From: Alphaproteobacteria bacterium
GTDB lineage: Bacteria > Pseudomonadota > Alphaproteobacteria > Caulobacterales > Aquidulcibacteraceae
Reading direction: 5' to 3'
DNA: 38,983 nt
Assembly (NCBI GenBank): GCA_026400735.1
Contig: JAPLOL010000103.1
Location: 1-38,983, forward strand
Position 1 is the first letter of the stretch. Every line of letters begins with the position of its first letter. A model generated the notes under the pieces. The model saw only the letters and a list, made by a program, of their open reading frames with translations. It was not told where the DNA came from and ran no database searches. The translations under genes were made by a program, and so were the position numbers. Below, one piece after another: positions 154 to 30,253 of this stretch.

Positions 154-236
154 GCCTTCGACAAGCTCAGGCTGACGCTAGTGGGCGCTGCAGCGCCGGC
201 GCGTGAAATGGCGTCATGCTGAGCCTGTCGAAGCAC
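154..236. repeat. Dispersed palindromic repeat doublet, copy A
   Basis: Left half-site 154-178 and right half-site 211-236 are near-perfect inverted copies (core CTTCGACAAGCTCAGGCTGA versus its reverse complement with three changes), separated by 32 nt of unique sequence. The same half-site recurs in this window at 3653, 18604, 25935, 25992, 26331, 26382, 30166 and 30224. The element fills the gap between the Crp-type regulator and the sulfate-binding lipoprotein gene and could form a long hairpin in RNA or a cruciform in DNA. Confidence 0.85.
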
Positions 237-3652: not shown

Positions 3653-3676
3653 GCCTTCGACAGGTTGAGGCTGACG
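3653..3676. repeat. Solitary, diverged half-site of the dispersed palindrome
   Basis: GCCTTCGACAGGTTGAGGCTGACG matches the left half-site of the doublets with two internal changes, but no right half-site is found downstream. It starts 17 nt after the stop of the hypothetical gene. It is probably a decayed remnant or a singlet of the family. Confidence 0.6.
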
Positions 3677-18600: not shown

Positions 18601-18637
18601 GTGGCGTCACCCTGAGCTTGTCGAAGGGCGACGCCAC
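18601..18637. repeat. Solitary half-site of the dispersed palindrome, with its own hairpin
   Basis: The right half-site GCGTCACCCTGAGCTTGTCG, continuing to 18634, lies between two converging genes. The outer bases GTGGCGTC (18601-18608) and GACGCCAC (18630-18637) pair, so even a single half-site can form a stem with a 21-nt loop. It may help end transcription of gshA and the ABC exporter gene. Confidence 0.75.
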
Positions 18638-24786: not shown

Positions 24787-25277
24787 AATTTTGCGGCCCT
24801 CTAATGTCAGGCCTCGCACTAATCATGCTCGTTGCGGCATGTGACGGGCGGCCAATCGGTCGCGAAAATGCGACCGACTATTTTGAAGCGCATCGCGCGG
24901 CACTCAATAGCGTCGTGGCGGAAGTGGAACGATGTCAGCCGGCGCATGGTCGTCTTCGCACGGTGCAGCACATCCAATGCTCAAACCCAAATGCCAGCGC
25001 AGCAGACCTGTTCACGGCGATGTCCGGCGCCAATGCGATTTGGGTCTATCCAAGCTATAATCGACCAGACAACGGCACCGCCACTTTGAACTCAGTGCGC
25101 ATTGGTATGTACGCGACGGGATCTGCCGTCGGCGGGGAGATCGAAGAGTTCGTTTATCAGGTCGAACCTGCCTCGTCGGCAGAGTATGAGCGGGATGACG
25201 ACGGCATAGCCATAAGACAGAGACAGCCTCTGACGGACGCGCCGCATCACTGGTACTGGTGGAAGATCGATCGGTGA
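24783..25277 (+). CDS. Hypothetical lipoprotein
   Basis: 164 residues from a TTG at 24783 that overlaps the desaturase stop. The alternative ATG at 24804 would remove the only basic residue of the signal peptide. A lipobox VAAC precedes DGRPIG. The mature part has two further cysteines (ERCQPAH, HIQCSNP) that could bond, and a C-terminal HHWYWWKID motif. No family is recognised. Codon use is less GC-rich than in its neighbours, hinting at a newer arrival, yet it overlaps both flanking genes. Confidence 0.7.
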   Translation: MKFCGPLMSGLALIMLVAACDGRPIGRENATDYFEAHRAALNSVVAEVERCQPAHGRLRTVQHIQCSNPNASAADLFTAMSGANAIWVYPSYNRPDNGTATLNSVRIGMYATGSAVGGEIEEFVYQVEPASSAEYERDDDGIAIRQRQPLTDAPHHWYWWKIDR

Positions 25278-25918
25278 TCTCCGACATCCCCGCCTTCATC
25301 CGCGAAAACACACGCGTCCTCGCGCCGAGCCATGTGCCGGAGCTTCAGCTGCATCTTGCCGACGACGCCGTAAGCCTCTGGGAGCTAACCGAAGAACAAC
25401 TCGGCGAACTCGGCCTGCCGCCGCCGTTCTGGGCCTTCGCGTGGGCCGGCGGCCAAGCGCTCGCGCGCTACATCCTCGATCATCCCGAAACCGTGCGCGG
25501 CAAAACCGTGATGGATGTGGCCTCCGGCTCTGGCCTCGTCGCCATCGCCGCAATGAAGGCTGGCGCCACATCCACGCTCGCGATCGACATCGATGCCTTC
25601 GCCTCACACGCCGCGATCCTCAACGCCGAACTCAACAGCGTCGTCGTCGAAACCAGCGGCGCCGATCCCGTTGGCAAGCCAACAGAAGCAGAAGTTATTC
25701 TCGTCGGCGATCTCTTCTACGATCGCGATCTCGCGCCGCGCGTGCTCGCCTGGCTCATCGAACAACAAGCCGCCGGCAAAACAATCCTCATCGGCGATCC
25801 CGGTCGCACCTACCTACCGCGCGACAAACTCGAACAAATCGCCGCCTACGACATCCCCGTCACCCGCGCGTTGGAAGACGCCGAGGTGAAGCGCGCCGCG
25901 GTTTGGAAGCTGCGTTAG
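25274..25918 (+). CDS. ETF-beta-type protein lysine methyltransferase (METTL20-like)
   Basis: 214 residues from a GTG at 25274 that overlaps the preceding stop (GTGA), with GGAAGA upstream. PPFWAFAWAGGQALARYIL (50-68), motif I DVASGSGLVAIAAMKAGA and the post-motif VILVGDLFYD match the family that methylates lysines on the beta subunit of electron transfer flavoprotein. The known bacterial homologues come from alphaproteobacteria. Modification would tune electron transfer from acyl-CoA dehydrogenases. A palindromic doublet follows 16 nt after the stop. Confidence 0.85.
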   Translation: MISDIPAFIRENTRVLAPSHVPELQLHLADDAVSLWELTEEQLGELGLPPPFWAFAWAGGQALARYILDHPETVRGKTVMDVASGSGLVAIAAMKAGATSTLAIDIDAFASHAAILNAELNSVVVETSGADPVGKPTEAEVILVGDLFYDRDLAPRVLAWLIEQQAAGKTILIGDPGRTYLPRDKLEQIAAYDIPVTRALEDAEVKRAAVWKLR

Positions 25919-25934: not shown

Positions 25935-26022
25935 GCCCTTCGACAAGCTCAGCGTGACGCCGTTGCAAACATCGGCGCCAATGCCCAGTGAGCGTCACCC
26001 TGAGCCTGTCGAAGGGCGACGC
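25935..26022. repeat. Dispersed palindromic repeat doublet, copy D
   Basis: Left half-site 25935-25960 and right half-site 25992-26022, 31 nt apart, are inverted copies. The right half holds the stop codon of the GIY-YIG gene (25995-25997), which encodes its terminal RRPSTGSG residues. This is one of two doublets bracketing that gene. Confidence 0.88.
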
Positions 26023-26306
26023 TTCGTTCCGTCCCTCGACTTAGCCAATCGCTGAACGTCAGCCCAATCGCCGCGCATGAGCGCCTCTTTCTTCGCGCGC
26101 GACCAGCCCTTCACTTTTTTCTCGAAAGCGATGGCGTCATCAATGTGCGCAAACTCATCGGACCACAGAAACTCGAATGGCTTCCGTGAAGCGGTGTAGC
26201 CAATCTCGCCATGATAATGCTGATCGAGCCTACGCTCGATGTTCGACGTCACGCTCGTATAGTACGAGCTGTCAGAGCATCGAAGGATGTAAACCCACGA
26301 AGGCAT
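25995..26306 (-). CDS. GIY-YIG nuclease family protein (UPF0213-like)
   Basis: 103 residues from ATG 26306. WVYILRCSDSSYYTSVTSNIERRLDQH is the GIY-YIG core; the conserved Arg (R25 or R26) and metal-binding Glu62 (AFEKKVKGW) are present. The second half of the motif is YTS in place of the usual YTG. SRAKKEALMRGDWADVQRLAK is typical of the branch common in Caulobacterales and sphingomonads. The last eight residues are encoded by the flanking palindrome. Only 24 nt separate the start from the upstream palindrome, so transcription probably comes through from the lipoprotein gene. Confidence 0.85.
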   Translation of the reverse strand: MPSWVYILRCSDSSYYTSVTSNIERRLDQHYHGEIGYTASRKPFEFLWSDEFAHIDDAIAFEKKVKGWSRAKKEALMRGDWADVQRLAKSRDGTKRRPSTGSG

Positions 26307-26330
26307 GCCGCCGACACTGTGCCACGCGCC

Positions 26331-26413
26331 GCCCTTCGACAAGCTCAGGGTGACGCGAATGGGGCGCCGGGTCAGAAAATGGCGTCACGCTGAGCCTGTC
26401 GAAGCACGACGCC
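26331..26413. repeat. Dispersed palindromic repeat doublet, copy E
   Basis: Left half-site 26331-26356 and right half-site 26382-26413 are inverted copies separated by 25 nt. The element lies between the start of the GIY-YIG gene and the stop of the lipoprotein gene at 26425. Confidence 0.88.
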
Positions 26414-26424
26414 ACACACCGGCC

Positions 26425-26910
26425 TCACTCCATCGGGCAAACGGCCATCCGCTCTTCTTCCGGCACGCGCGACTTCGCATCGTCGCAAACAGCGCCCCAA
26501 AGTGTCTGCACTTCAGTCCCGAGCGCATCGCTCCGCGATTGTATCTCCGCCAACGTCGGCTCAACTGTGCTCGGCTCGGAAATCCAAACCGGCTCATACG
26601 CTGAGCCGCACGCGACTTCGGTGAACAGCCCCTTCGCGCACAGCTGCGAGCGTTGAATGTTGTAATTCCAAACCGCCTCACGCAGCCGCCGCGCCAGATC
26701 GCGTGTTTCGGTGCCTTCAGGTTCTACGGAGCCAGGGCGCGCCATGCTCAGATCGTTCACTTGAGAGAGCATCGCGCCATAGCGGCCGATCTCGATGTTC
26801 AGCGTGGCCGGATCGGGCCCAGCGGGTCCGGTTGGAACTTCGGCTTGTTGTTCGCTGGTTTGTCCGCACGCGGCCAAAGCCAACGCCAACACGATCGCAC
26901 GTAATTTCAT
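26425..26910 (-). CDS. Hypothetical lipoprotein
   Basis: 161 residues. The ATG at 26910 is followed by a compact lipoprotein leader, MKLRAIVLALALAAC. The mature protein begins with a flexible acidic linker, then a helical domain containing DLARRLREAVWNYNIQRSQLC and EIQSRSDALGTEVQTLWGAVCDDAKSRVPEEERMAVCPM. Four further cysteines suggest two disulfides. No family is recognised. It could be a small envelope protein. It is transcribed towards the GIY-YIG gene. Confidence 0.72.
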   Translation of the reverse strand: MKLRAIVLALALAACGQTSEQQAEVPTGPAGPDPATLNIEIGRYGAMLSQVNDLSMARPGSVEPEGTETRDLARRLREAVWNYNIQRSQLCAKGLFTEVACGSAYEPVWISEPSTVEPTLAEIQSRSDALGTEVQTLWGAVCDDAKSRVPEEERMAVCPME

Positions 26911-26975
26911 GAACACGCCTCCACACGCAGACCTTAGCGGCGCTGCGCGATGCGTGTCGTTTTGTTTTTTGTAAT

Positions 26976-30165: not shown

Positions 30166-30253
30166 GCCCTTCGACAAGCTCAGGGTGACGTCAATTCTGA
30201 CAGTCGCACCGATGCCCAAAGTAGCGTCATGCTGAGCCTGTCGAAGCAGACGC
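30166..30253. repeat. Dispersed palindromic repeat doublet, copy F
   Basis: Left half-site 30166-30190 and right half-site 30224-30253, 33 nt apart. The element ends 13 nt before the msbA start, so in a transcript from the cysQ operon it would fold into a hairpin almost touching the msbA ribosome-binding region. Confidence 0.88.

Follow-up and report, generated by a model that had tools for sequence, protein, structure and literature searches.

A stand-alone GIY-YIG nuclease gene and its flanking CGTC-ended palindromic repeats: a candidate two-part repeat system in Alphaproteobacteria and other bacteria

The GIY-YIG locus and its palindromic repeats

The window, i.e. the whole 38,983-nucleotide stretch of DNA analysed here, carries on its minus strand a gene for a GIY-YIG nuclease of 103 amino acids (25995..26306, ATG at 26306, stop at 25995-25997; PF01541, E 1.5e-15). 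Two palindromic doublets bracket this gene, one at its 3' end (25935..26022), consisting of two opposed half-sites and containing the stop and the last eight codons, and one upstream (26331..26413), recognised by its half-site matches and its fold. The half-site CTTCGACARGCTCAGSRTGA was located at 25938(+), 25995(-), 26334(+) and 26385(-), which together with the Pfam match confirms what the first-pass annotation had described, namely a nuclease gene enclosed by two doublets and ending within one of them. It had also claimed that half-sites occur elsewhere in the window without the gene; they are indeed present as solo doublets at 156..233 and 30169..30246 and as a lone half-site on the minus strand at 18607..18626. 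A weak, unpaired half-site with 2 mismatches lies at 3655. The window contains nine half-sites (≤3 mismatches), where shuffles predict 0.01, and genome-wide there are 54 (≤1 mismatch) against 0 for the reversed pattern (3.58 Mb, 173 contigs). The source genome contains four GIY-YIG matches and only the stretch of the window's gene holds the half-site; at another of the matches (L004) a single related palindrome lies 71 nt away. The left neighbour of the unit encodes a PrmA-like methyltransferase (25259..25918, plus strand), which was matched in 30/30 genomes of the genus and served to locate the bare site, and the right neighbour, convergent with it, a 163-aa protein with no Pfam match (26425..26916, minus strand).

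The repeat consensus was built from 51 half-sites (≤2 mismatches), of which two or three are doubtful, taken from the window and from 20 stretches around other genomic sites, and reads GGCGTCG[CC]CTTCGACARGCTCAG[GG]TGACGCC, with CGTC/GACG ends. Among the 51 half-sites there are 23 opposed doublets, of which 22 share one arm orientation and one is reversed; the commonest spacer is 41 nt (8/23). The two adjacent bracketed pairs covary, being complementary in 42/47 and 40/47 half-sites (≤1 mismatch) against shuffle means of 25.3 and 19.2 and maxima of 36 and 31. At the gene, the arms 25935-25960 and 25992-26017 are 92% complementary, and the segment 25935-26017 folded as single-stranded DNA with -27.3 kcal/mol (z -7.2), a value equalled by 0/200 shuffles. 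The upstream doublet (26331-26413) folded with -23.7 kcal/mol (z -3.8, again 0/200 shuffles), and the fold of a lone half-site was unremarkable (z -1.5, 15/200 shuffles equally good). The hairpin scheme of each half-site comprises a stem, X-GAG-loop-CGA-X' (tandem G·A mismatch with closing pair) and an apical loop. On the opposite strand the half-site is CTGAG-CYTGT-CGAAG, which in our reading would form a stem broken by G·A and A·G and closed by a G-C pair below a loop of 5 nt; in the computed folds this region stays open. At L088 and L096, on the downstream side of the gene, a short-loop half-site appears to be nested within the apical portion of a long-loop repeat (CTGAGGAG..CGAAGG), an arrangement suggestive of one repeat having inserted into the other.

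Among proteins of solved structure, the nearest are the UPF0213 entries 1zg2 and 1ywl (profile E 3.3e-18 to 1zg2). The catalytic residues of GIY-YIG enzymes are Tyr, Tyr, Arg and Glu; Y6, Y16, R26, H30 and E62 were invariant in 61 chosen aligned sequences, and the catalytic set thus appears to be kept in the clade. The gene is under purifying selection, with dN/dS of 0.05-0.17 in seven pairs (gap-free alignment). At six loci and in Sphingomonas parapaucimobilis it was found between nrdR and an RNA methyltransferase gene, the flank types differing among them; at three loci and in S. paeninsulae it stood between rnc and era, the last of these without palindromes. Since some lineages hold the gene at one chromosomal place, it seldom moves, which recalls the RAYTs, reported in the pertinent passages of PMC3116915 to be single-copy and seemingly not self-mobile. 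Among plasmid records 3/72,556 matched at E ≤1e-12, all called non-mobilizable and two of the three palindrome-flanked, and among 50,697 phage records there was one weak match at E ≤1e-8; a plasmid or phage origin of the gene is unsupported by these numbers. As a separate observation, the GIY-YIG frame meets no stop in the repeats and continues into the following gene at L044, L045, L049, L053, L060, L081 and L116, at L072 and L078, and at L018 and L019, the genes reached being presumably MeaB-like, RluD-like and MaoC-like. The frame exceeds 250 aa from the matched start in 23/80 loci (the best 80 of at least 524). Fusion, translational coupling or a mere lack of stops could each account for such frames.

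Association of the gene with the repeats across genomes

We examined the physical link in three samples. In a family sample of 60 genomes, close relatives of the gene (E below 1e-23) were present in seven, and a half-site adjoined the gene in 7/7, on both sides in five and on one side in L018 and L019; the more distant GIY-YIG genes of the family had a half-site in 0/23 fetched loci (stretches of 1.9-3.3 kb). A wide scan of the genome collection returned at least 590 pattern stretches, and among those listed 524 were confirmed as relatives, the best 80 of which were taken as loci. Within 400 bp of the gene the exact half-site (≤2 mismatches) occurred in 53 of these 80 (both sides in 23), and within 300 bp a widened palindrome occurred in 75 (both sides in 44). 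Control placements elsewhere in the same 80 loci met the widened palindrome in 172/8,599 cases and never on both sides; its density was 4.0 per kb near the gene against 0.07 per kb far from it. The adjacency of gene and repeat is not a matter of chance, and it is specific to the clade. The palindrome-flanked relatives come from records named as alpha-, beta- and deltaproteobacteria, Bacteroidetes and Omnitrophota.

The widened pattern (CTGAG-N3-36-CGAAG plus an outer pair) was devised after inspection of loci lacking the exact half-site, and for this reason the class sample, for which 289 genomes of alphaproteobacteria with a completeness of 90% or more were drawn irrespective of repeats, is a fairer check than the wide scan. 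The clade gene (E ≤1e-20) was present in 29 of them. Apart from the window's own locus, and with L158 (E 6e-19) left out of the count, the widened pattern lay at 23/28 class loci, on both sides in 14. The remaining five (L137, L138, L150, L152 and L154) showed by eye near variants, including GTGAG..CGAAC and CCGAG..CGAGG, in which the outer pairs vary and the G·A core is kept. Placement controls in the short class loci, few in number, gave 0/61. A palindrome also adjoins each of seven further clade copies (L159-L165). Among 13 weaker relatives in the class, a palindrome with a CGAG..CGAG core was found at L166 (both sides) and L169 (one side), L167 had one weak match, and none was found at the other ten (L158, L170-L178). 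L166 (G114) is a more distant GIY-YIG gene, off-clade on the protein tree, with ATTCCGAGCGCAGCGAGGAAT-type palindromes on both sides, and is possibly a second gene-repeat pairing. Furthermore, the position of the hairpin relative to the gene falls in a narrow range: of 108 loci examined, 41 have a short-loop hairpin within 150 nt upstream, and in 30 of the 41 it lies 34-45 nt before the matched start.

Repeat number also tracked the gene. In the family, repeats were present in 7/7 gene-bearing genomes (6 to 105 half-sites) and in 13/53 gene-less ones (up to 39; p 2e-4, relatedness ignored), and outside the window's genus in 3/3 against 0/27. In the class, where the counts cover two repeat types (patterns), at least one repeat was found in 27/29 gene-bearing against 30/260 gene-less genomes (p 6e-20, relatedness ignored) and at least five in 20/29 against 12/260 (p 4e-16, relatedness likewise ignored). 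Within the 14 families that contain both states, the mean repeat count of the gene-bearing genomes was higher in 12 (sign test p 0.013). The gene-bearing genomes of the class sample hold one or two clade genes each and, with the two types combined, up to 243 repeats; second gene copies within a genome differ in sequence, as judged by eye. The two outcomes that the first-pass annotation had named beforehand as contrary to its idea, GIY-YIG genes no nearer to the repeats than other genes and repeat numbers unrelated to the gene, were neither of them seen.

In addition, the repeat type beside the gene was the abundant type of the genome in 18/19 genomes (p 1.6e-4), in 11/11 with the short-loop and 7/8 with the long-loop type, the exception being G112. 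The 19 are the 29 gene-bearing genomes minus nine with fewer than five repeats and minus the mixed G306, which has one gene of each kind and both repeats in number (143 and 100); G069 and G082 were scored by the flank of their second gene. On a protein tree of 128 rows and 91 columns (64/122 inner forks open), the A/B/C repeat labels require 14 changes, whereas shuffled labels need 29.6 on average, and 0/200 shuffles were as low, i.e. the labels cluster. Automatic loop classes being noisy, the labels were set by hand, rows not otherwise listed receiving the short-loop type, and are to that extent subjective; L015, L016, L156, L157 and L165, broken or cut short, were omitted from the tree.

Comparison with relatives revealed bare sites for both kinds of unit. 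The methyltransferase and 163-aa neighbours were found together in 24 relatives. In the window 513 bp separate them; in 12 of the 24 they stand 7-13 bp apart and in 11 they are separated by 51 to 1315 bp, with gene and exact half-site absent from both groups, and in G042 a gap of 315 bp holds a gene remnant and repeats at the window's site. From the frequency of the bare state we infer that it is the older one. The solo doublet 30169-30246 is missing at the matching place in G032 (15 bp opposite 136 bp of the window), and by eye G044, G046 and G031 have a short spacer there; in G042 the doublet has an altered form and in G049 the contig starts inside it. Empty sites, for which the first-pass annotation had suggested comparing strains, thus exist for the gene unit and for this doublet. 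The outer ends of the gene unit agree with the half-site consensus at 16/21 and 18/21 positions and those of two solo doublets at 19, 7, 11 and 12 of 21, and on these scores the idea that the gene unit and the solo doublets share their ends is only partly supported. A target-site duplication was sought by eye at two sites against bare relatives, where the neighbouring bases were too diverged to call. The methyltransferase/163-aa junction appears to be an insertion-prone spot: it carries inserts of 1315 bp in G032 (L201), 584 bp in G046 (L200) and 736 bp in G058 (L208), and shorter inserts with other palindromes in further relatives.

Proposed repeat spreading and alternative readings

We favour, with a probability of roughly 0.6, a two-part system in which a stand-alone GIY-YIG clade acts on the palindromic repeats, the enzyme cutting the hairpins and host copying spreading the doublets. 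The nuclease would recognise the G·A hairpin formed by extruded DNA or by single strands, for instance on the lagging-strand template, and would cut near the hairpin base; host replication or repair would then copy the doublet to new sites or capture it there, and the gene would be retained beside the repeats that its enzyme serves. Cleavage by GIY-YIG enzymes is hydrolytic and leaves no DNA end covalently bound to the protein; therefore the joining step would have to come from the host, or else the role of the enzyme would be hairpin management.

Several genomes stand against spreading, and so does a gene that seldom moves. Among gene-less genomes, 13/53 in the family carry some repeats. Three class genomes are repeat-rich and gene-less, G148 (44), G163 (34) and G319 (76), the first two without any A1 match, and nine of the 29 gene-bearing class genomes have fewer than five copies of the two counted patterns, two of these genomes none. 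Two of the seven family genes, those of G034 and G042, have broken frames. G042 has the most half-sites in the family (105) with only a frame-broken copy and a remnant: on its contig C44 (L016, L168, L205) the broken copy lies amid many repeats, and the remnant sits at the window's site. The broken frames of G034 and G042 are possibly draft errors. Loss after spreading, or draft errors, could explain G042 and the repeat-rich gene-less genomes; in G148, G163 and G319, whose repeats occur with no clade gene present, the gene may have been lost or missed in draft gaps, or something else may drive the repeats. The first-pass annotation had proposed that a GIY-YIG enzyme may nick or cut the hairpins and drive their copying in parallel to RAYT. 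Of this proposal, the flanking, the repeat numbers and the empty sites held up; the 12/260 gene-less genomes with at least five repeats and the solely broken copies of G042 tell against the copying part.

A reading without spreading, which we consider unlikely though a serious contender, is that the nuclease cuts or resolves hairpins or cruciforms formed by the repeats, or that the repeats are operators of its own gene, and that genomes with repeats benefit from keeping the nuclease. GIY-YIG enzymes of the Slx1 or UvrC type act on unusual DNA structures. Such a role agrees with the catalytic residues invariant in all 61 sequences and the purifying selection, with a gene place that is fixed while the adjoining repeat type differs, and with the persistence of repeats in genomes that lack the gene or hold broken copies. 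Taken alone, however, it leaves unexplained the narrowly spaced position of the gene between repeats, with the hairpin 34-45 nt before the matched start in 30/41 loci, and the zero copies in 27/27 gene-less family genomes outside the genus.

Homing endonucleases of the GIY-YIG type exist, and the gene sits between or beside repeats, so the repeats might be only landing sites for a passenger gene, with something else moving them. We regard this as improbable, given that the flank type matches the abundant type, that gene-less family genomes outside the genus are without repeats, and that in 12/24 relatives a gap of 7-13 bp, holding no gene or half-site, lies between the neighbours. Because these relatives are bare, no repeat would have awaited the gene at that site if the bare state is the older one.

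Still less credible is that a Y1/HUH transposase encoded elsewhere (RAYT or IS200-like) moves the repeats and the GIY-YIG link is secondary. The source genome has one PF01797 match, and Y1 genes occur in 14/20 repeat-bearing against 13/40 repeat-free family genomes (p 0.012, relatedness ignored). However, of six listed Y1 places examined, five were without a widened palindrome in the stretch and one had a single palindrome about 1.4 kb away; on the contig of the source genome's own Y1 gene the nearest listed half-site is about 74 kb off, and six repeat-bearing genomes are without a Y1 match, one of them with 32 half-sites. Moreover, the relevant passages of Di Nocera et al. 2013 (PMC3733652) describe no gene for a tyrosine transposase with CGTC repeats at its flanks. 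A RAYT origin of the repeats is weak despite the mild Y1-repeat correlation. Finally, chance placement of a common repeat next to a common small gene has practically no probability, being ruled out for the sampled loci by the placement controls (both sides 44/80 against 0/8,599, either side 75/80 against 172/8,599).

Relation to known repeat systems

The closest analogue in working of the two-part system that we favour is RAYT/REPIN, i.e. REP-associated tyrosine transposases and doublets of REP sequences, as set out by Bertels and Rainey 2011 (PMC3116915). According to the parts of that paper describing the elements, both systems have imperfect palindromes of short length that are paired as opposed doublets around a spacer and reach high copy numbers, and in both a genome holds one or two distinct enzyme genes with its abundant kind of repeat at their flanks. 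A repeat-flanked partner gene, opposed foldable doublets and few enzymes with many repeats were all found here. The partner in RAYT/REPIN, in contrast, is a HUH/Y1 enzyme (IS200/IS605-like), whereas the window's gene matches only PF01541 in Pfam, and the repeats there carry a GTAG tag, whereas those here end in CGTC/GACG and have tandem G·A mismatches at the core. For a GIY-YIG enzyme, unlike RAYT, no covalent intermediate is expected. Because the defining enzyme and the tag are both absent, the present system is not a member of RAYT/REPIN, though similar in working.

The repeats resemble by description, and not by a match to a named family consensus, the CGTC-tagged REPs, which were reported without a dedicated transposase (Di Nocera et al. 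2013, PMC3733652, in the passages on these elements). In the same passages, CGTC (or TGTC, CCTC) adjoins the stem, the tag is unpaired, and the stem of 8-9 bp opens with A-T pairs. In our own copies the tag is in many cases able to pair with the opposite end, the C at -4 being complementary to the G at +4 in 41/47, and an A-T stem start is present in CATCCTGAG variants and absent from most of our own copies. Shared with the published description (PMC3733652, as far as these passages go) are the CGTC end, the predominance of HH doublets and an occurrence mostly in alphaproteobacteria, with Bacteroidetes among the other phyla represented. Provided that the G·A pairs are taken as part of the stem, ATCCTGAG-CTTGT-CGAAGGAT agrees with the stem of 8 bp and loop of 5 nt given there. 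The difference is that a candidate dedicated enzyme, the GIY-YIG nuclease, is available here and none appears in those passages of PMC3733652.

Two further comparisons are informative. The small UPF0213-type GIY-YIG proteins (1zg2, 1ywl) have the same domain by sequence and a similar size, but the more distant small GIY-YIG genes are mostly without flanking palindromes (0/23 in the family; none at 10/13 weaker class relatives). Autonomous IS with their MITEs likewise combine a gene-bearing unit with gene-less doublets from the same repeat; here, in contrast, there is no transposase and no proven target-site duplication, the ends are partly alike and the gene rarely moves. In the open-access literature, to which the search was confined (subscription papers and preprints lay outside it), the papers listed, as judged by their titles and the opening lines of their abstracts, included none linking GIY-YIG nucleases with such repeats, and the sequence letters of the repeat were found in no open-access paper. 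A gene table in PMC9465073 contains RayT and a GIY-YIG protein, listed apart in the portion concerned, and a term search for 'GIY' in the text of a 2018 paper citing the CGTC work (PMC6006769) gave no hit.

A broader form of the proposal is that a system spanning several phyla, in which a stand-alone GIY-YIG enzyme reads a tandem G·A hairpin and disperses CGTC palindromes by cut-and-copy, is the missing partner of the CGTC REPs and an independent invention of the RAYT/REPIN arrangement; for this the odds seem to us about even. Few small elements of bacterial genomes are as common as palindromic repeats, and for the CGTC superfamily, whose partner enzyme was described as missing in the 2013 account (PMC3733652, in the passages cited), the GIY-YIG gene is a concrete candidate. 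The analysis supplies a structural signature, the tandem G·A hairpin, together with named cultured strains whose genes have clear flanks, for example Xenophilus aerolatus DSM 19424 (L043), Methylorubrum rhodinum DSM 2163 (L103) and Erythrobacter crassostrea WH158 (L105). If true, the proposal would give REP biology a second, unrelated enzyme and GIY-YIG nucleases a new role, and would open the manner in which such repeats spread to direct testing. The co-occurrence of gene and repeats in many bacteria suggests that this enzyme may be the partner, long missing, by which a large class of genome repeats is spread or managed.
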